From positions 1-39,074 of the forward strand of contig JAAEPH010000048.1 in NCBI GenBank assembly GCA_024232855.1: a DNA stretch of 39,074 nt. The letters run 5' to 3'. Of this stretch, positions 30,209-38,809 are shown in pieces (the first letter of the stretch is position 1; the number at the start of each line of letters is the position of its first letter). The DNA is from Gammaproteobacteria bacterium (lineage in GTDB: Bacteria; Pseudomonadota; Gammaproteobacteria; GCA-001735895). A model generated the notes under the pieces. That model was not told where the DNA came from. It did no database searches and saw nothing but the letters and a program-made list of their open reading frames with translations. Made by a program: the position numbers and the translations under genes.

Positions 30209-31849
30209 ATGGCCCTGACCGACAGGAAAGCCTGGAAGAACCTGCGCGAGCACGCCGTCAAGACCGGCAACCTGCACCTCAGCGAGCTGTTTGGCGAGGA
30301 TGGCGATCGCTTCGAGGCCTTCAACCTGCAGCACGACAACCTGCTGTTCGACTACTCCAAGCAGCGCATCAACCACGAAACCATCGAACTGTTATGCAAA
30401 CTGGCCCGCGAGTGTGATCTGAAGGGGTGGATCGAAAAGCTGTTCTCGGGCGATGCCATCAATAATTCGGAAAATCGGGCGGCACTGCATGCTGCACTGC
30501 GCCTGCCAGCCGACAGCGAACTTATCGTCGATAGCGAAAATATCGTAAGCGGCATTCACGACACGCTCGGGCGCATGCAACAGATTGTCGAACGCATTCA
30601 TGCGGGGCAATGGCGCGGGTTTTCCGGGCGACCGGTCGACACCATCGTCAATATCGGCGTCGGCGGCTCGGACCTGGGGCCTTTCATGGCGTCCAAGGCG
30701 CTGTCGGACGCGCGCGTTCCCGGCGCACGCAAGCTCGAAATCATATTCGTCTCGACCATGGACGGCAGCCAGATCGCACAACGGCTCGACAGTCTCGACC
30801 CGGAAACGACCCTGTTTATCATTTCCTCGAAGTCGTTCACCACCATCGACACCCTGTCCAACGCCAACACCGCGCTGCAATGGCTGCGCCAGGCCAGCGG
30901 CGCCGAGGACGAAGTTCTCTATCGCCGGCATTTCATCGGTATATCGGCGGATAACGAGCGCATGGCCGACTGGGGAATTCCGCCCAACAGCCGCCTCGCG
31001 TTGTGGGACTGGATCGGCGGGCGTTACTCGATGTGGTCGGCGATCGGGTTGCCGATCGCGCTCGAGATCGGCATGGACGGTTTCAGGCAGATGCTCGCCG
31101 GCGCGCACGCCATGGACCGGCACTTCCGCGAGGAACGCTTCGAGAAGAACCTGCCGGTGATGCTCGCCATGATCGGCATCTGGAACATCAATTTCCTCAA
31201 CATCCGCGCGCATGCCATCCTGCCCTACGACGGCCGGCTGAGCCATTTGCCGGCTTATCTCGAGCAGCTCGAGATGGAAAGCAACGGCAAAAGCGTCAGC
31301 CGCGATGGCAAAGACATCGATTACAATACCTGCCCGATCCTGTGGGGCGAGGTCGGGCCCAATGCGCAGCACGCCTTCTACCAGCTGTTGCACCAGGGCA
31401 CCGAACCGGTGATGTGCGATTTCGTGGTGCCGGCGCGGCGTTACCACGAGAGCGGTAACCCCGAGCTGCAACAGCAGCACAAGCTGACGCTCGCCAACTG
31501 CCTGGCGCAATCGCGCATCCTGGCGCTCGGCGATACCGTCATCAACGAGGACAACACCACGCCATTTTTCAAGCGCTACAGCGGCAATCAGCCGTGCACG
31601 ACGTTGATGCTCGACGAAGTGACCGCCTACAGTTTTGGCCAGCTGATCGCGCTGTATGAACACAAGGTATTCGTGCAGTCGGTGATCTGGAACATCAATC
31701 CCTTCGACCAGTGGGGCGTGGAACTCGGTAAGCAGGTGGCGACGACCCTGATCGATCCGCTTTCGCAGACATCGCCACAAGCCGACTTTGACAGTTCCAC
31801 CAACGGCCTGCTCAAGTCGATCCTCGGGCATCAGGAGCAGGATTCATGA
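30209..31849 (+). CDS. pgi: Glucose-6-phosphate isomerase Pgi
   Basis: Pgi interconverts glucose-6-phosphate and fructose-6-phosphate. The 546 residues match the family (E. coli 549). Motifs: NIGVGGSDLGPFMASKAL, the sugar-phosphate loop SSKSFTTIDTLSNA, WDWIGGRYSMWSAIGLP, catalytic Glu in ILWGEVGPNAQHAFYQLLHQG, and the C-terminal catalytic Lys in HKVFVQSVIWNINPFDQWGVELGK. Its stop overlaps the next ATG as ATGA, so the three genes are translated as a unit. Pgi would balance glycolytic flow against nucleotide-sugar synthesis by the neighbouring galU. Confidence 0.97.
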   Translation: MALTDRKAWKNLREHAVKTGNLHLSELFGEDGDRFEAFNLQHDNLLFDYSKQRINHETIELLCKLARECDLKGWIEKLFSGDAINNSENRAALHAALRLPADSELIVDSENIVSGIHDTLGRMQQIVERIHAGQWRGFSGRPVDTIVNIGVGGSDLGPFMASKALSDARVPGARKLEIIFVSTMDGSQIAQRLDSLDPETTLFIISSKSFTTIDTLSNANTALQWLRQASGAEDEVLYRRHFIGISADNERMADWGIPPNSRLALWDWIGGRYSMWSAIGLPIALEIGMDGFRQMLAGAHAMDRHFREERFEKNLPVMLAMIGIWNINFLNIRAHAILPYDGRLSHLPAYLEQLEMESNGKSVSRDGKDIDYNTCPILWGEVGPNAQHAFYQLLHQGTEPVMCDFVVPARRYHESGNPELQQQHKLTLANCLAQSRILALGDTVINEDNTTPFFKRYSGNQPCTTLMLDEVTAYSFGQLIALYEHKVFVQSVIWNINPFDQWGVELGKQVATTLIDPLSQTSPQADFDSSTNGLLKSILGHQEQDS

Positions 31850-33114
31850 AAATTGCCGTCTGGGGTGATGAACTGACCGCGTGGGTTACCGCGGGCGCGC
31901 TCGCCGAAACCGGCAATGACATCGCCTTTGTCAGCAACAGCCAGATCGACGATCCGATCACGTTGATGGGCAGCAGCATTCGTAACGAACCCGGCCTGCG
32001 TGACCTGATCTGCAACGAGGTCGAACACAAGCGCCTGCGTTTCGTGCAGACCCGCACCGCGCTTGGCATCCAGGCGCATATTCTGAGCATGAACCCGAAC
32101 CAGTTCGACGAGGCCCACGACATTGTCGAACAACTGGTGAGAAAGGCCGAAGGTCCGCTGCTGATCATCAACCAGAGCCATTTCGGCTTTGGCGCGACCG
32201 ACAGGCTGCAGGCTTTACTGAACCGCCGTAAAAAACAGATCGTCGTCTACTTCGCGGAGAATATCTCCGAGGGTGAGGCGCTCGATCGTATCCGCAACCC
32301 CAAGTCGCTGATTCTGGGCAGCGATGATGAAGCCGCAACGCGTACCCTGGAGGCGTTGTTCAAACCCTTCAGCGCGCAGCTGGAAAACCGGTTCGTGATG
32401 ACACCACGCGAAGCGGAGTTCACCAAACTTGCAATTATCGGCATGCTCGCGCTGCGCATCGGCTACACCAACGAGCTCGCCAACCTCGGCGAACAACTCG
32501 GCGTCGATATCGACGTGATTCGACGCGGCATGGGCGCCGACCCGCGCATCGGCAGGCACCACCTCTCCCCCGGCTGCGGCTTTGGCGGCAACAACTTTCC
32601 ACAAACGCTGAAAAGCCTGGCGCGGTTACTGTCGGAGAACAATGAATCGACGCTGATGCAGACCGTGCTGCAGGAAAACGAAAACCAGAAGGAATTGCCG
32701 TTTCGCAAGCTCTGGCAGCATTACAAGGCCGACCTGCACGAACGCAAGATTGCGATCTGGGGCGCTTCGTTCAAACCGGGTTCGGCCTCGCTCGACGCGG
32801 CGCCCAGCCTGCGCGTCATCGATGCGATCGTCGCGCAGCAGGCCGAAGTGCGCGTTCACGACCCCGAGGCGCATGAAAACGTTCATCATATCTACCACGA
32901 CAACCCCTACGTCAAAATCATCAACGGCAAGTACGACGCGCTCAAAAATGTCGATGCGCTGGTGTTGCTGACCGAGTGGCCGGAGTACTGGTCGCCGGAC
33001 TTCGAATTGGTGCGCAAGCAGATGAAGTCACCGGTGATCGTTGACGGGCGCAACATCTACGATCGCGACCTTATCGAGTCCCGGGGCTTCACCTATTACG
33101 GCATCGGCCGTTAG
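31846..33114 (+). CDS. UDP-glucose/GDP-mannose dehydrogenase homologue lacking the catalytic cysteine
   Basis: The 422 residues follow the three-domain plan of UDP-sugar dehydrogenases: an N-terminal dinucleotide fold (MKIAVWGDELTAWVTAGALA), a central domain with AENISEGEALDRIRNP and AEFTKLAIIGMLALRIGYTNE, and a C-terminal sugar-binding domain (KIAIWGASFKPGSASLDAAPSLRVID). Active-site Glu138 and Lys194 are kept. The Asn (usual YAANA) is Ile198, and the cysteine of GGSCFPKD is Asn250 in GGNNFPQT, which also loses the following Asp. Cys244 lies six residues earlier. Ordinary four-electron oxidation to the uronate therefore seems unlikely. It is coupled to pgi by ATGA. Confidence 0.9.
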   Translation: MKIAVWGDELTAWVTAGALAETGNDIAFVSNSQIDDPITLMGSSIRNEPGLRDLICNEVEHKRLRFVQTRTALGIQAHILSMNPNQFDEAHDIVEQLVRKAEGPLLIINQSHFGFGATDRLQALLNRRKKQIVVYFAENISEGEALDRIRNPKSLILGSDDEAATRTLEALFKPFSAQLENRFVMTPREAEFTKLAIIGMLALRIGYTNELANLGEQLGVDIDVIRRGMGADPRIGRHHLSPGCGFGGNNFPQTLKSLARLLSENNESTLMQTVLQENENQKELPFRKLWQHYKADLHERKIAIWGASFKPGSASLDAAPSLRVIDAIVAQQAEVRVHDPEAHENVHHIYHDNPYVKIINGKYDALKNVDALVLLTEWPEYWSPDFELVRKQMKSPVIVDGRNIYDRDLIESRGFTYYGIGR

Positions 33115-33124
33115 CCCGCCATCC

Positions 33125-33250
33125 ACCCCCGTCATTCCGGCGCCTCACTGCGTCGTCCCGGACCGCATGCGTCCCACTTAGCCGGGATCCAGTTTTGCGG
33201 GGCATTCCCGGCAGTTGGACTGGATTCCGGTTTGCGCCGAAATGACGGGT
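33125..33250. repeat. Family B palindromic repeat, copy 2
   Basis: Left arm ACCCCCGTCATTCCGGCGC (33125-33143) and right arm GCGCCGAAATGACGGGT (33234-33250), with inner CCGGGATCCAG and CTGGATTCCGG. It fills the gap between two convergent genes and could act as a bidirectional stop for transcription. Confidence 0.75.
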
Positions 33251-33267: not shown

Positions 33268-34041
33268 TTATTTGCGGAAGAGCTGGCGGGCGATGTTTGC
33301 GGGGAGGCGGCCTTTCTGTTCGATGCGGTACTTGTTGAGGCTGATGCGTGCCGCCACCAGGTTGAGTACGGATTTTACGGGCGGATCGATATCGCCCACG
33401 GAGGCGATTTTCACATCGACCTCGTAGAGTCCGGCGGCTCGGATGATGCCGCCTCCGCTGACGTCGAGAGCGGCGTCTAGATCACGCACCGTGAAATCGT
33501 ATTGTTGCGGGTTGCCGGTGAATTCAACCTGGTAATCGCCGATATCGATCTTGATACCGTCGTCATCTATGCCCAGGTCGCGCCATATCAACTTGCCGTT
33601 AGCGGTAACCAGCTTGCCCTGCAGCATCGACAGATCATCAACCTTCAACTGCAGTCGCCCGACCGGCCTGACCAGCACATTGGGCACATGCTTCAGCAGT
33701 TCCGAAACCGGGTACTCGATACGGGTCTTACTGACCTCGGTGTCGCCGTTCAATACATCGTAAGCAACCTGGACCCTCCCCTGCTCGTAGTCGATGCGAT
33801 AACAGACTTTCAGCAATAGAATACAGGAAGGCAGGTAACGGTAACGGATGCCCCGGATCGGAAAGTCATTGATGCGCACTTCCACCGCCGTGCCCCCGAG
33901 CACGTTGCCGTCGACCCCGCTAACCTGCACCGATCGGGGCAACTCGACATGCGGCAAAACTTGCGAAATCGGCAGGTTGAGTAACAATGCAACCACCTGG
34001 CACAGCAGAAAGAACAGCGTGAACTTCCAGGTCTTGAGCAT
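33268..34041 (-). CDS. gspN: Type II secretion protein N
   Basis: GspN is an optional T2SS inner-membrane protein. The 257 residues start with one membrane helix (KFTLFFLLCQVVALLLNLPI) and continue as a periplasmic domain with the family features LPRSVQVSGVDGNVLGGTA, GRLQLKVDDLSMLQGKLVTANGKLIWRDLGI and YDFTVRDLDAALDVSGGG. It is the last gene of the gspG-N run, adjacent to gspM, and closes the operon against a palindromic repeat. The sequence is diverse in this family, so the call relies on both features and position. Confidence 0.85.
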   Translation of the reverse strand: MLKTWKFTLFFLLCQVVALLLNLPISQVLPHVELPRSVQVSGVDGNVLGGTAVEVRINDFPIRGIRYRYLPSCILLLKVCYRIDYEQGRVQVAYDVLNGDTEVSKTRIEYPVSELLKHVPNVLVRPVGRLQLKVDDLSMLQGKLVTANGKLIWRDLGIDDDGIKIDIGDYQVEFTGNPQQYDFTVRDLDAALDVSGGGIIRAAGLYEVDVKIASVGDIDPPVKSVLNLVAARISLNKYRIEQKGRLPANIARQLFRK

Positions 34042-34515
34042 TCAGGGACGCATCAATACGATGTGGCTGTCGACAACGCCGGGCATATCCGAGACGAGGA
34101 TGCGCATATCCTGGACCTCGAGCCCGTTGCTGTTGACCTCGGCGATAAAACCGATCAGATGGTTAAAGTCGACCGCCTTGTAACGCATCCTGATTTCATC
34201 CGCGCCAATCGGCGACATTTGCGACAACTGTTCGCTAAGACCCTGGCGGCGCACCGCCTGGTCGATAAAATTAGCCAGGGTACCGCTGATCCTGGTGGTG
34301 CTGGACGAAGCCACCCCGGTTGGCATGCGCGCAACCGCCGATTTCATCCAGGTGAGATCGGTACGCTGCTGCTCGATCTCGTCGAGCAAGGACGCTACTC
34401 GCTGCTGGTAGGGTTCGATCACCAGGGCGTGCGCGCCGATAACAATGACGACCACCATGGCCGCCAGCACGATCAGTTTTTCACGCAGCGAATAGCGGGC
34501 GAGGAATTCAGACAT
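34042..34515 (-). CDS. gspM: Type II secretion protein M
   Basis: GspM is a bitopic membrane protein that pairs with GspL in the assembly platform. The 157 residues have one N-terminal helix (LIVLAAMVVVIVIGAHALVI), a coiled segment YQQRVASLLDEIEQQRTDL, and a periplasmic ferredoxin-like domain ending in LEVQDMRILVSDMPGVVDSHIVLMRP. I start at the ATG at 34515, which overlaps the gspL stop by eight bases. A GTG two codons earlier is the alternative. Confidence 0.88.
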   Translation of the reverse strand: MSEFLARYSLREKLIVLAAMVVVIVIGAHALVIEPYQQRVASLLDEIEQQRTDLTWMKSAVARMPTGVASSSTTRISGTLANFIDQAVRRQGLSEQLSQMSPIGADEIRMRYKAVDFNHLIGFIAEVNSNGLEVQDMRILVSDMPGVVDSHIVLMRP

Positions 34516-35701
34516 CGCCACCTCCCTGCATCACCAGGCGGCCCGAACTGAACTCGGGCTTGATGTTGAGGCTGAGCAGCGTCGCGTTGACGCCAGACTT
34601 TTTCACCGCTTCCAGCAAGGCCTCGATATTGTTCAACTCGGTACTGCTGATATCGAAAGCAAGCTGCTTGTCCTGGTATCCGACGCGCGTGATTTTCACA
34701 TCCGGGAATTTGGCCCATGCGCGCGTGAAATCGAGCATTAGCCGTAAAAACCCCTGTTCGCGCTGGCTCGACTGCAATAGCTTGAGCCGCTCGATCAGGA
34801 CTTTCTTCATGTTGTCATCGACGGAAAGCCCCGGCAGGTACGGCTTCAGCAGCTCGTACTGCTGCTGCTTGATTCCGGCAAGTTCCTGTTCCATCTCCTG
34901 CAGTGCAACCGCCTTGTTGTAGGCGCCGAGCACGAGCAGGGTCGCGAACAGCAATCCAATCCACTTCCAGGCCCGGGCCAGCCCCTGCCTCGCCGAGGAC
35001 AGCTGGTAATCGCGCTGCTGCAGATCGATGATCGGCGCATCGACAAACCCGGGCCGAGCCTCCGCCAGCGTCCTGCGCTCGATCCGGTAACCGTCGAGTT
35101 CGGGCGTGGGCTCGTCCGCGCAAGCATAATAAATAATATCGCCGAACTCGACCTCGCGCCCGACGAGTTCGAGCATGGCCGGCAACGCCTGCGCATTGCA
35201 TTTCAGGCCGCGATAATCACCGTAGCGCAGCAGGCTACCCTCGCAACCTTCCATCAAAACGATGCCACTACCCGGCCACGGGCATAAAAACAGTTCCGGC
35301 AGAATTTGAATCAGACGCAAGCCATACCCCTGCGCCAGGGCAGTACAGCGCATCATGATGAAACGCTCCACCACGGCCACCGGGATCGGGTTTACGTTGT
35401 TATCGCCGAGCGCACAGTGCTGGGTTTCGATGTCCTGCGCGAGCTGATCCTCGACCTGGTACTCGATCGCGGAGAGCAATTGCCGCCCCGCTCTCTCGGG
35501 CAGCTCGACCTGCGTCAGGTAAACGCATTGCTGCGGCAGGATCATGATCACCGGGTGCGGGTTTTGCGACGCCACCGTGGCGAGCTCCCCTTCCTCGGCC
35601 GACTGCCACTCGATGTCGGCGGTTTGCACCGCTTCGTCGATACTCGCCCAATGGAAATCGGCGAGTTCGTAACTGGTGAACTGAAGCAGCAGGTGCGCCA
35701 T
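34508..35701 (-). CDS. gspL: Type II secretion protein L
   Basis: GspL links the GspE ATPase to the inner membrane. The 397 residues hold an actin-like cytoplasmic domain (about 1-235, with the family block IMILPQQCVYLTQVELPERAGRQLLSAIEYQVEDQLAQDI), one membrane helix around 245-262 (WIGLLFATLLVLGAYNKAV) and a periplasmic domain (FDISSTELNNIEALLEAV). The start is the ATG at 35701, overlapping the gspK stop by one base (TGATG), a coupling repeated through this operon. Confidence 0.93.
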   Translation of the reverse strand: MAHLLLQFTSYELADFHWASIDEAVQTADIEWQSAEEGELATVASQNPHPVIMILPQQCVYLTQVELPERAGRQLLSAIEYQVEDQLAQDIETQHCALGDNNVNPIPVAVVERFIMMRCTALAQGYGLRLIQILPELFLCPWPGSGIVLMEGCEGSLLRYGDYRGLKCNAQALPAMLELVGREVEFGDIIYYACADEPTPELDGYRIERRTLAEARPGFVDAPIIDLQQRDYQLSSARQGLARAWKWIGLLFATLLVLGAYNKAVALQEMEQELAGIKQQQYELLKPYLPGLSVDDNMKKVLIERLKLLQSSQREQGFLRLMLDFTRAWAKFPDVKITRVGYQDKQLAFDISSTELNNIEALLEAVKKSGVNATLLSLNIKPEFSSGRLVMQGGGDV

Positions 35702-36606
35702 CAAAACTGCCCCAGGGTGCGGTTGATGACGCGGGTTTTACCCTCGGTATCGCGGTAGATCAGCGAGGTCAGGTTGTACTGCTGTTCGCCCTGCACTACC
35801 TGCCCGTGCGCCCGGAAAAAATCCGTATCGACCGACAGGCCGTCGGCTTCGACGGGTATCTGCAGGCGCTCGATGAAATCGTTGACGCTTTCATAGACAT
35901 CATCGTCGCGCTGTTCGATAAAATCGCTCACATCGACATCCGGGGCAAGAATCTGGAATATTACTTCTGACATGGTGTTGACATTAATTGTAGACGTTCC
36001 CGGCAAGGCCGTGATATGCGGTTTCAGCTTTTCGTAAATTTCCGGGGTAACGTTTTGCACCAGTAGCAGCTCGCTGATGTCGGCCATCTCGCGGTTGGCG
36101 ACACGGTAGTCTTCATAGTTCTCTTCCATGCCGTCCGGGTAGCGAATGTCGAAATCCTCGTCGATCCAGTCCATGAGCGCGGGGATGAAAGTGTCGTCGA
36201 CGTCGAGATTATCACACAATCGCTTGAACCTGTTTAGCGCGATTTTCGATCCTGGCAGCGTATTCAGATTGAATTTGGCCTGCTCGTCTTCTACGTAACC
36301 GGTCAGGTAGCCGCCCTCGATCGGCAGGCCGGGAATATCGGTCGCCCAGTATTCGTCGAGGCTGTCGGTATCCGACTCCTCGCTGTCCTCCTTCAGATAG
36401 ATTCGGGCCAGGTCCTCGAGCCCGATGGCGTACAGCGCGGCGCGGTCCGAGAGATGAATGTGCGCGCTCTTGCGAATGGTGAATTTCTCCTCGTGCACGA
36501 TGCTGACCGCAACCGTAGTGCCGATGACGACGATCAGCATCGCCATCAACAGCGCGAGACCACGTTGACGCCGCGGGCTGGTCCGCATCAGGTTAGAGGA
36601 CACCAT
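35701..36606 (-). CDS. gspK: Type II secretion minor pseudopilin K
   Basis: GspK caps the pseudopilus tip. The 301 residues have the type IV prepilin-like segment RRQRGLALLMAMLIVVIGTTVAV; cleavage is expected after the glycine. The GspK family lacks the usual +5 Glu, as here. A long alpha domain follows, with DEYWATDIPGLPIEGGYLTGYVEDEQAKFNLNTL and the INVNTMSE block. GGAG lies seven bases before the ATG at 36606, which I use; a second ATG at 36588 would shorten the leader by six residues. It overlaps the end of gspJ by 14 bases. Confidence 0.92.
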   Translation of the reverse strand: MVSSNLMRTSPRRQRGLALLMAMLIVVIGTTVAVSIVHEEKFTIRKSAHIHLSDRAALYAIGLEDLARIYLKEDSEESDTDSLDEYWATDIPGLPIEGGYLTGYVEDEQAKFNLNTLPGSKIALNRFKRLCDNLDVDDTFIPALMDWIDEDFDIRYPDGMEENYEDYRVANREMADISELLLVQNVTPEIYEKLKPHITALPGTSTINVNTMSEVIFQILAPDVDVSDFIEQRDDDVYESVNDFIERLQIPVEADGLSVDTDFFRAHGQVVQGEQQYNLTSLIYRDTEGKTRVINRTLGQF

Positions 36607-37192
36607 CGGGTATCTCCAGGAGGCGCGTGATCTCGCCGATATCGGCCAGGTCCAGGCGCAGCGCCAGCACGATCGGATTATCCGTGCTCGAACCCGATTC
36701 CAGCGGCCAGCTGCGGATCGGTTGCCCGAGCGCATCCACGAATTCGATCTCGACGGCTTCAATGTTGTCCAGCAACACGGTTTGCAACGGCTCTTCACCG
36801 ATACCCTGGTCGAGTGAGCGCCAGTAGCGCCGCACCAGCTGATCGTCGATCTGGAGGTATTGCACGCGTTGCAGGCTGCTGCGCTGGTGTCCGAACAGGC
36901 TACTCCAGCCGCTGCGGGTGAAGGTAATGCCGGCGTCACCGATGACGACGTTGTGCTCTTCGTCGCCATACTGGTTGCGGATCTTGCGCGGCGACACCTG
37001 GGCCCAGTCGCGGTTAAAATAGGCCACCGCAAACTGCAAATCCGAAAGCCGATTGTTGGCCTCGGTGACGGCCTGCCCGGTACGCGTCATCTGCCCGAGT
37101 CCGCCGAATGCGACCACCCCCATGAGCGCAAAAATCGACACCGCGATCACCATCTCGAACAGCGTAAAACCCCGACAGTTTCTCCTGGTCAT
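36593..37192 (-). CDS. gspJ: Type II secretion minor pseudopilin J
   Basis: A 199-residue pseudopilin with the cleavage site CRG/FTLFEMVIAVSIFALMGVVAF, including Glu at +5. The body shows GspJ features: RLSDLQFAVAYFNRDWAQVSPRKIRN, RSGWSSLFGHQRSSLQRVQYL and LLDNIEAVEIEFVDALGQ. It forms part of the tip complex with GspI and GspK. The ATG at 37192 overlaps the gspI stop by one base (TGATG). Confidence 0.93.
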   Translation of the reverse strand: MTRRNCRGFTLFEMVIAVSIFALMGVVAFGGLGQMTRTGQAVTEANNRLSDLQFAVAYFNRDWAQVSPRKIRNQYGDEEHNVVIGDAGITFTRSGWSSLFGHQRSSLQRVQYLQIDDQLVRRYWRSLDQGIGEEPLQTVLLDNIEAVEIEFVDALGQPIRSWPLESGSSTDNPIVLALRLDLADIGEITRLLEIPDGVL

Positions 37193-37803
37193 CACAGGTT
37201 CGCTATAAACCCGGTGACCCGCGCCTTGACGGCGGTTTCACCCTTCACGGAGACCTCGACATCGATGCGGCGCATGGAAGGATTATCGGTCTTCGAGATC
37301 TTCATCTCCCAGCTCCAATCCGTGTTCGCCATTTCAGTCTCGCCGGTGTGCCGGGTCTTGCTGCCCCAGGTACGCCGGGCCCGATACACGGCAATTTCGT
37401 TGTGTGCGACCCAGCTCGCGATCGTCGATTGCCGCAGATGCGCCGACTTCCAGCCCGACTCAGCCGTGGTGCTGATCACCGCACCCATGCCGAGCGTGAT
37501 CACCAGCAATGCGGTCATGACTTCGAGCAGCGTGAAGCCGCGCTCCTTACCGTCATTCCTCGACTGGAACGGCCTGGGTACGCCCTCACAACCGTCATCC
37601 CGCATCTTGTCCGGGTGGAGCAACGAAACAATCCCGCTCTCATCACCACAACCGTCATCCCGGCGAAGGCCGGGACCCAGTGTTCTTGGGTGTAATCCTT
37701 CGCCTCTGGATCCCGGCCTTCGCCGGGATGACGTGAGGGGGCGCCAGGATGACGTAAGCGAGTGCCAGGATGACGTGCGCATGGATAGCGGTTGGATGCT
37801 CAT
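37192..37803 (-). CDS. gspI: Type II secretion minor pseudopilin I with repeat-derived leader
   Basis: The C-terminal 114 residues are a normal GspI: ERG/FTLLEVMTALLVITLGMGAVIS cleavage region with Glu at +5, then ASWVAHNEIAVYRARRTWG and the closing VKARVTGFIANL. The open frame starts at 37803, where its ATG overlaps the gspH stop (ATGA), the coupling expected for the native start. Between that ATG and the cleavage site lie 89 codons, most of them a family B palindrome read in frame (about 37588-37775). Either an 89-residue leader is made, or translation restarts at the ATG at 37605, giving a 23-residue leader. See findings. Confidence 0.88.
   Translation of the reverse strand: MSIQPLSMRTSSWHSLTSSWRPLTSSRRRPGSRGEGLHPRTLGPGLRRDDGCGDESGIVSLLHPDKMRDDGCEGVPRPFQSRNDGKERGFTLLEVMTALLVITLGMGAVISTTAESGWKSAHLRQSTIASWVAHNEIAVYRARRTWGSKTRHTGETEMANTDWSWEMKISKTDNPSMRRIDVEVSVKGETAVKARVTGFIANL
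37588..37775. repeat. Family B palindromic repeat, copy 3, inside the gspI leader
   Basis: GTCATCCCGGCGAAGGCCGG... (37654-37680) and the arm at 37706-37732, beginning CTGGATCCCGGCC, are reverse complements with one mismatch. ACAACCGTCATCCCG occurs at 37588 and again at 37648, and GCCAGGATGACGT at 37743 and 37763. It looks like one full palindrome flanked by partial copies on each side. Confidence 0.85.
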
Positions 37804-38324
37804 CCCAGCGGCTCCGGTCCGGTCATCAGGACGTTGCCGAGCATATTGCCCTGCAAGACGATCCCGGACCGCGAAAGCTTATCCTCGATGCGCCATTCGA
37901 ACGGCGTCATTTCACCGCTGGCGAGAATCAGAATATGCGGCTGCGGATCGGTTTTCGGCGAGATATCGATGATCTGGTCCTCGATGACCAGCTCCGAAAT
38001 TTGAGATTCGGTCATCTTGAACCGGCTAAAAAAAGAATCTTCGGCAGGCGCCCAGTCGCCCCTTCCATACTCGAGCACTATGAATCCCTTTTCCTGCACC
38101 GAGATCGCGTAATTACGGCCTTCGAAAACCGCTTCCTGATTTAACAGGTGGAATAGCTTACCGAGATCCTTGCCGACGCGTTTCAGATCGCGCGTCTGAT
38201 CGCCGAGGCCCACCGAAAACTGCACCATCGAGATCGTGACCGCGACAATGGCAACCACGACCAGCAATTCCCACAGGGTAAAGCCCCGTTGCGAATCGGC
38301 GGCTCGCGCAGCGTCTGGTGGCAT
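37800..38324 (-). CDS. gspH: Type II secretion minor pseudopilin H
   Basis: The 174 residues start MPPDAARAADSQRG and the prepilin site is RG/FTLWELLVVVAIVAVTISMV, with Glu at +5. The rest fits GspH: the DLKRVGKDLGKLFHLLNQEAVFEGRNYAI helix and strand, GFIVLEYG, PHILILASGEMTPFEW. It starts seven bases after gspG and ends in the ATGA overlap with gspI. I start at 38324; the longer frame to 38681 is an out-of-frame reading of gspG. Confidence 0.92.
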   Translation of the reverse strand: MPPDAARAADSQRGFTLWELLVVVAIVAVTISMVQFSVGLGDQTRDLKRVGKDLGKLFHLLNQEAVFEGRNYAISVQEKGFIVLEYGRGDWAPAEDSFFSRFKMTESQISELVIEDQIIDISPKTDPQPHILILASGEMTPFEWRIEDKLSRSGIVLQGNMLGNVLMTGPEPLG

Positions 38325-38331
38325 ATGCAGG

Positions 38332-38766
38332 CTAGGAATCGAGGTTCCAGTTTCCAATGTCGGCCGCTTCACTTTCTCCTCCGGACGCGGCATCCGCACC
38401 CAGCGAAAACACGTCAAACTCGCCATTGGAGCCCGGGTAGAGGTAGCGATACTCGTTGCCCCACGGGTCCTTGGTGAGTTTCTTGATATAGCCGCCATCG
38501 CGCCAGTTGCGCAGCTCGGACCCCGAGGGCTTGTTGACGAGTGCGTCAAGGCCCTGTGCGGACGACGGGTACACAAAATTATCCAGCTTGTAGAATTCGA
38601 GCGAGGATTCGAGAACGCGGATATCGCTCTTGGCCTTGGCGATGCGCGCATCGTCAACCCGTCCGGCGACCTTGGGCGCAATATAAGCGGCGAGAATCGC
38701 GATAATCGCGACCACGACGATGATTTCGAGCAGGGTAAACCCCTGGTTGGAGCGTAGTTTGTTCAT
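38332..38766 (-). CDS. gspG: Type II secretion major pseudopilin G
   Basis: GspG is the main subunit of the pseudopilus. The 144 residues begin MNKLRSNQG/FTLLEIIVVVAIIAILAAYIAPKV, a classical prepilin peptidase site with Glu at +5. The calcium-loop region is present: LTKDPWGNEYRYLYPGSNGEFDVFSLGAD. I start at the ATG at 38766; an ATG nine codons upstream is in frame. It is the first gene of this block, since gspF does not directly precede it. A possible -10 TATACA lies around 38801-38806. Confidence 0.95.
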   Translation of the reverse strand: MNKLRSNQGFTLLEIIVVVAIIAILAAYIAPKVAGRVDDARIAKAKSDIRVLESSLEFYKLDNFVYPSSAQGLDALVNKPSGSELRNWRDGGYIKKLTKDPWGNEYRYLYPGSNGEFDVFSLGADAASGGESEAADIGNWNLDS

Positions 38767-38809
38767 GTCAGTTAGATTGTCAGGTTGTGCCATGGTTCAT
38801 TGTATACCT

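Follow-up and report, generated by a model that had tools for sequence, protein, structure and literature searches.

The third gene of a galU-pgi operon in the analyzed window, a stretch of 39,074 nucleotides of gammaproteobacterial DNA, encodes a homologue of UDP-glucose dehydrogenase (UGDH) and belongs to a family of proteins in which the nucleophilic cysteine is absent. In this Cys-less family, the dehydrogenase function has very probably been lost, judging from the residues that were replaced. The explanation that we favor is a pseudoenzyme of single UGDH origin, which would bind a UDP-hexose and regulate the node leading from glucose-6-phosphate (G6P) to UDP-glucose. In its broadest form, the proposal describes a widespread pseudoenzyme that senses UDP-sugars, arose from UGDH a single time through the loss of NAD binding and catalysis, and controls the supply of UDP-glucose in Acinetobacter as well as in many marine and halophilic gammaproteobacteria. 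The always-present K-locus 'ugd' of Acinetobacter baumannii would then be the same regulator, producing no UDP-glucuronate; we give this broad form an even chance of being right.

The open reading frame is translated into 422 amino acids without internal stops, and its ATG shares four bases with the TGA of pgi (ATGA, 31846-31849), in agreement with the initial annotation of the gene as an intact frame. The protein matches UGDH over its full length, scoring 205.8 bits against the TIGR03026 cut-off of 189.8, and the N-terminal, central and C-terminal UDPG/MGDP dehydrogenase domains (PF03721, PF00984, PF03720) are all recognized. The match to BceC (2y0e) is found at 1e-64. By these three domains and the score above the cut-off, it is a member of the UGDH superfamily by descent. 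The copy numbers of UGDH, galU and pgi in the host genome come from searches of genome assemblies, in which no second full copy of galU or pgi was found in that genome. The GalU of the operon scores below its profile cut-off, as does a relative from the same genus (309.8 bits, L037); its motifs look intact, and it represents a diverged GalU. Just 3′ of the pUGDH gene lies a nested inverted repeat (33128-33249) with 16-nt arms CCCGTCATTCCGGCGC and GCGCCGAAATGACGGG and a second pair of 12 nt inside them; it may be a mobile element of small size or a REP-like one. It is followed on the minus strand by a cluster of genes that, judged by eye, looks like type II secretion (gsp-like, 33268-38793) and is convergent with the operon.

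Table 1. Operon genes and diagnostic segments of the UGDH-like protein (window coordinates).
Feature	Position	Strand	Basis
galU (UTP-glucose-1-phosphate uridylyltransferase), sole clear copy in genome	29314..30204	+	303.5 bits to TIGR01099, short of the 326.8 equivalog cut-off
pgi (glucose-6-phosphate isomerase), sole genome copy; stop overlaps pUGDH start	30209..31849	+	NF001211, 728 bits
Probable UGDH-like pseudoenzyme gene (422 aa), third in galU-pgi-pUGDH	31846..33114	+	Translation, profile and structure-sequence matches, family conservation
Rossmann motif, canonically GxGYVGL, degenerate as G7-D-E-L-T-A12-W; loss of the NAD pyrophosphate loop	31864..31884	+	Alignment, 67-row scoring
K194-L-A-I-I198, with the catalytic Lys present and Ile in place of the catalytic Asn	32425..32439	+	Alignment
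G247-G-N-N250-F-P-Q253-T254: nucleophile Cys, Lys and Asp replaced, glycines kept	32584..32607	+	Alignment, 67-row scoring
F309-K310-P...D317...S321, with the UDP-diphosphate Lys present and Asp in place of the NAD-pyrophosphate Arg	32770..32808	+	Alignment; roles from PMC4794789

Alignment to BceC (2y0c/2y0e) bears out the earlier claim that the catalytic Cys, Asn and Asp are lost while Glu138 and Lys194 are retained. The segment TKYAANAMLATRI of these structures reads TKLAIIGMLALRI in the window protein, with Ile198 in place of Asn and Lys194 kept, and GGSCFPKD reads GGNNFPQT, with Asn250 in place of Cys and Thr254 in place of Asp. A cysteine, Cys244, stands six residues ahead of Asn250. The initial annotation missed the loss of the PKD Lys (Gln253) as well as that of the NAD-binding residues, where G9 is replaced by E, Y10 by L, G12 by A, D29 by S30 and R327 by D317. 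As a result of these replacements GxGYVG has become GDELTA, and the nicotinamide-ribose loop GTPPDEDGSAD, which bears Thr83, is deleted. The window protein thus lacks each of the features by which an active UGDH is recognized, namely the Cys of GGxCFPKD, the pair Asn208 and Asp264, and the Rossmann GxGxxG with Asp29, Thr83 and Arg327. The same changes are present in orthologues at 80-86% identity from seven genomes of the genus and in homologues at 48-61% from named isolates, so they are not due to chance or to an assembly error. No solved structure was found for any member of the Cys-less family. In an AlphaFold2 model built from an alignment of the window protein and 14 relatives (pLDDT 76.7, pTM 0.57), the N-terminal domain is confident and the central domain is weak; a Foldseek search of the PDB with this model returned UGDHs with a TM of about 0.5 and 11 A rmsd.

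The extent of the family was followed through several searches. One search with the window protein, covering 84,980 species genomes of bacteria and archaea, gave 16 loci. Orthologues came from metagenome-assembled genomes (MAGs) within the genus of the window, and homologues from Neptunomonas, Marinobacterium and Neptuniibacter; one named orthologue record among them is the Olavius algarvensis Gamma 3 endosymbiont. Wider searches added three large groups within one order and a few outliers. Matches at the family's score occur in 83 of 117 genomes of one taxonomic family and in 36 of 46 of another, the motifs being checked for those loci that were fetched. Such matches were picked by similarity and not by the absence of Cys, and in an order-wide search it is missing from every sequence of the 27 genomes with an E value no higher than 1e-80, the first canonical sequence (L102, GGSCFPKD) appearing at 3e-77. 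In two genomes (G563:C15:371-1429 and G646:C19:966-2027) another UGDH-like protein is encoded, which stands at 39% to the canonical form and matches only residues 3-359.

The conservation of individual sites was scored with a published list of 18 invariant and several near-invariant dehydrogenase-family residues and their roles (PMC4794789), applied to 44 rows and then to 67, some of them near-identical or from the same genome twice. Glu201, Lys204, Asn219, Arg244, Gly257, Gly258, Asn287, Lys320 and the DGRN Arg are kept in all 67 rows, and these are UDP-sugar contacts and loop-holding residues. Glu145, which lies close to the diphosphate of UDP-glucose, is retained by 56 rows and is the sole scored UDP-glucose contact that falls short of full retention. 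The nucleophile Cys260 is found in none of the rows, and the NAD residues are nearly or fully gone (Gly9 1/67, Tyr10 0/67, Gly12 4/67, Asp29 0/67, Lys263 4/67, Arg327 2/67), with the Thr83 nicotinamide-ribose loop deleted in the inspected members. Retention of Asn208 (15/67) and Asp264 (27/67) is intermediate. The Cys site is occupied by H, G, T, N, S, Y or A, from which it follows that nothing took over from Cys; the same variation makes a specific role of Asn250 itself unlikely. The place of the NAD pyrophosphate carries acidic residues, Glu at 9 in 41 of 67 and Asp at 317 in 52 of 67, which suggests dinucleotide exclusion. Other positions, e.g., Leu10, Lys288 and Trp290, are constrained in the Cys-less family only. 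One locus of a genus relative (L032) was excluded from the counts since its first coordinates overran the gene. The last ~54 codons of the gene are duplicated directly downstream in this locus (L032:7405-7566; G005:C133:35587-35748), and the duplicate is 83% identical to the window protein and contains one TGA.

In the IQ-TREE phylogeny, a 100/100 branch separates the Cys-less proteins, including that of A. baumannii, from canonical UGDH. Looking for a clade with Asn at the Cys site had been suggested earlier as a check; the monophyletic Cys-less clade is real, and Asn is not common to it. The members nearest to the canonical side, L049 and L050, have already lost Cys, GxGxxG, Asp29 and the loop with Thr83 but still have Asn208, and L050 also retains Lys263, Asp264 and Arg327. 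The family is graded, as these early-branching members show, and we infer from the tree that NAD binding and the nucleophile were lost first, with the remaining residues decaying later. Monophyly, absence of Cys, absence of GxGxxG and adjacency to galU or pgi were all found for this UGDH-like family. The genus of the window nests beside Neptunomonas, and the gene is present in only 8 of 31 sampled genomes of the genus, from which we weakly infer that the operon may be horizontally acquired. No description of a UGDH pseudoenzyme or of a Cys-less UGDH was found in the open-access literature.

The A. baumannii member is the K-locus gene located between galU and gpi, which came at the top of a search of proteins from plasmid records, including whole chromosomes deposited as plasmids (37.6% identity, 5e-83). 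In three strains, its product Ugd (L123:5001-6263) carries FGTTLHAG and GVGFGGENFSHD, lacks GxGxxG and Cys, and falls in the Cys-less clade by the tree and by residue scoring. This region-3 Ugd shares the clade and the neighbors (galU-ugd-gpi) with the window family. It differs from the window protein in being more diverged, in keeping Asp264, in having Val at 244, and in being published as a predicted UDP-GlcA producer. The genes galU, ugd, gpi and pgm are described as always present in K loci, ugd leading to UDP-D-GlcpA by prediction (PMC3628348, PMC9676051), and ugd is called a constant member across 237 K loci (PMC9676051). The glucuronic acid of capsules is assigned to the extra genes ugd2-ugd5, 24 in the table (PMC9676051), and in K71 to ugd4 (PMC11619341). 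Such a combination of an always-present ugd with glucuronic acid assigned to ugd2-ugd5 is the pattern expected if the region-3 Ugd is dead, and from its residues the annotation of the K-locus 'ugd' as a UDP-GlcA producer appears doubtful.

A phage-resistance phenotype has been connected with ugd as well. Mutation of ugd in A. baumannii CRAB110 is reported to lead to phage resistance, and no complementation of this mutation was found in the text of the report (PMC13340115). The strain is KL34, with a capsule predicted to be common to KL20 (PMC9676051), and the KL20 capsule contains GlcpA (PMC10715181). A role of Ugd2 has reportedly been published for KL20. The mutation was set aside as evidence, since in a strain with this predicted capsule the mutated ugd may be the extra gene.

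The placement in a galU-pgi operon, noted initially for the window, extends to the family, with galU or pgi as an immediate or near-immediate same-strand neighbor in 36 of the 37 loci with flanks. The gene orders, with X as the Cys-less gene, are galU-pgi-X, galU-X-pgi, galU-X and pgi-X, and other recurrent neighbors, named by eye from sequence, are galE-like and phosphomannomutase/phosphoglucomutase-like genes. This adjacency could simply go back to a galU-ugd-pgi operon in an ancestor. In the human enzyme, Arg260 and residues 265-280 relay the state of the sugar site to the neighboring subunit, and mutation of Cys276 alone blocks normal turnover (PMC3184952). Every Cys-less member retains the equivalents of these relay residues, namely Arg234 and the GG loop, and a ligand-driven conformational signal is therefore plausible without catalysis. 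The predicted UDP-sugar site itself (Lys204, Arg244, Gly257, Lys320 and the DGRN Arg) is intact in all rows; the full retention of Lys204 could mean that some chemistry is left. The pseudoenzyme would thus retain the UDP-hexose site together with the cross-subunit Arg that reads the ligand of the neighbor. With Cys and the NAD residues lost, NAD binding and thiohemiacetal formation would be gone, and the protein would make no UDP-glucuronate. Encoded in one operon with GalU and Pgi, it would sense the level of UDP-glucose or a related UDP-hexose and bind a partner at the node, GalU and/or Pgi being the best candidates, thereby adjusting the flow of glucose-6-phosphate into UDP-glucose. Of the functions suggested initially, a single oxidation step is disfavored by the family-wide loss of the NAD site. 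For a nucleotide-sugar-binding regulator, binding without oxidation fits the kept and lost residues; the regulatory role we hold to be reasonably probable, with UDP-sugar binding, regulation and partner all putative.

Several other explanations were weighed. The loss of several catalytic residues could point to a decaying pseudogene, a reading with practically no probability left, as the frame is open, the four-base operon overlap is preserved and conservation is family-wide. Among pairs from the genus, NG86 gives a dN/dS of about 0.04-0.10, as low as for galU (0.04-0.14) and pgi (0.04-0.16), dS being close to saturated for several of the pairs; these values and the distribution already refute decay, as the initial annotation had held. 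It is very improbable that the protein is a normal UGDH using Cys244 or another Cys as the nucleophile, an option also raised at the outset. Cys244 is indeed present in 63 of 67 rows, but it is ancestral, with Cys at this position in 6 of 9 canonical enzymes. A. baumannii and L050 lack it, Val or Thr being found there in some members of the Cys-less family, and the Asn, the Asp and the NAD site are lost. A different enzyme, i.e., a UDP-sugar-acting catalyst that is NAD-independent or uses another cofactor in a remodeled N-terminal domain, is unlikely but deserves some weight. Strong purifying selection, the invariant Lys204 and the residues constrained in the family only would agree with it, whereas the old reactive-centre sites (Cys260, Asn208, Asp264) vary freely among the members and no new conserved acid, base or nucleophile is evident there.

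The protein might also act as a regulatory subunit that joins and tunes active UGDH hexamers. UGDH is active in dimeric and hexameric form, with sensing across subunits (PMC3184952), and in L087, L089, L093 and L101 a canonical or E. coli-type ugd is clustered with galU, the Cys-less gene and pgi, the paralogues coexisting. We regard this as quite unlikely, since the gene is kept where such a partner is missing: no other UGDH-type gene was found in the genome of the window (97% complete), in three further MAGs of the genus or in G093, a complete single-contig genome. Likewise, two of three A. baumannii chromosomes keep the gene with no second, canonical UGDH match at E 1e-15. The absence from MAGs could reflect incompleteness; as the Cys-less gene is the sole UGDH-type gene in these genomes, a canonical partner is not obligatory. 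Equally improbable is a moonlighting UDP-glucose sensor that acts outside sugar metabolism, e.g., in division or envelope synthesis. It would be consistent with the kept predicted UDP-sugar site, the position at the UDP-glucose node and the precedents of UgtP and OpgH, but no linkage to division genes was seen in the examined flanks.

The UDP-hexose-binding pseudoenzyme thus remains the favored explanation, and it bears on how such genes are read. In automatic annotation and in published K-locus schemes, these proteins count as UDP-glucose dehydrogenases, and UDP-glucuronate is predicted as their product. If the family is catalytically dead, predictions of pathways and capsules that build on this gene in Oceanospirillales relatives and Acinetobacter need correcting, and there would be a direct answer to why GlcA-containing A. 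baumannii capsules need ugd2-ugd5 beside the always-present ugd. The family would also provide a conserved candidate for sensing at the branch point of G6P and UDP-glucose.

The window protein has the same three-domain architecture as known UGDHs (BceC 2y0c/2y0d/2y0e, Porphyromonas gingivalis 3gg2 and the human enzyme), is about 31-35% identical to the bacterial ones and shares the scored UDP-glucose contacts, invariant except Glu145. Unlike UGDH, the family lacks the nucleophile Cys, GxGxxG, the ribose Asp and the PKD Lys, has Arg327 replaced and the nicotinamide-ribose loop deleted. A precedent at the same metabolic node is what we take GalF of enterobacteria to be, a paralogue named 'GalU regulator GalF' in TIGR01105; GalF is of GalU descent, whereas the window family descends from UGDH. 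UgtP of Bacillus subtilis and OpgH of E. coli are UDP-glucose-responsive regulators as well, but they are unrelated glycosyltransferases, and no homology to them is claimed.
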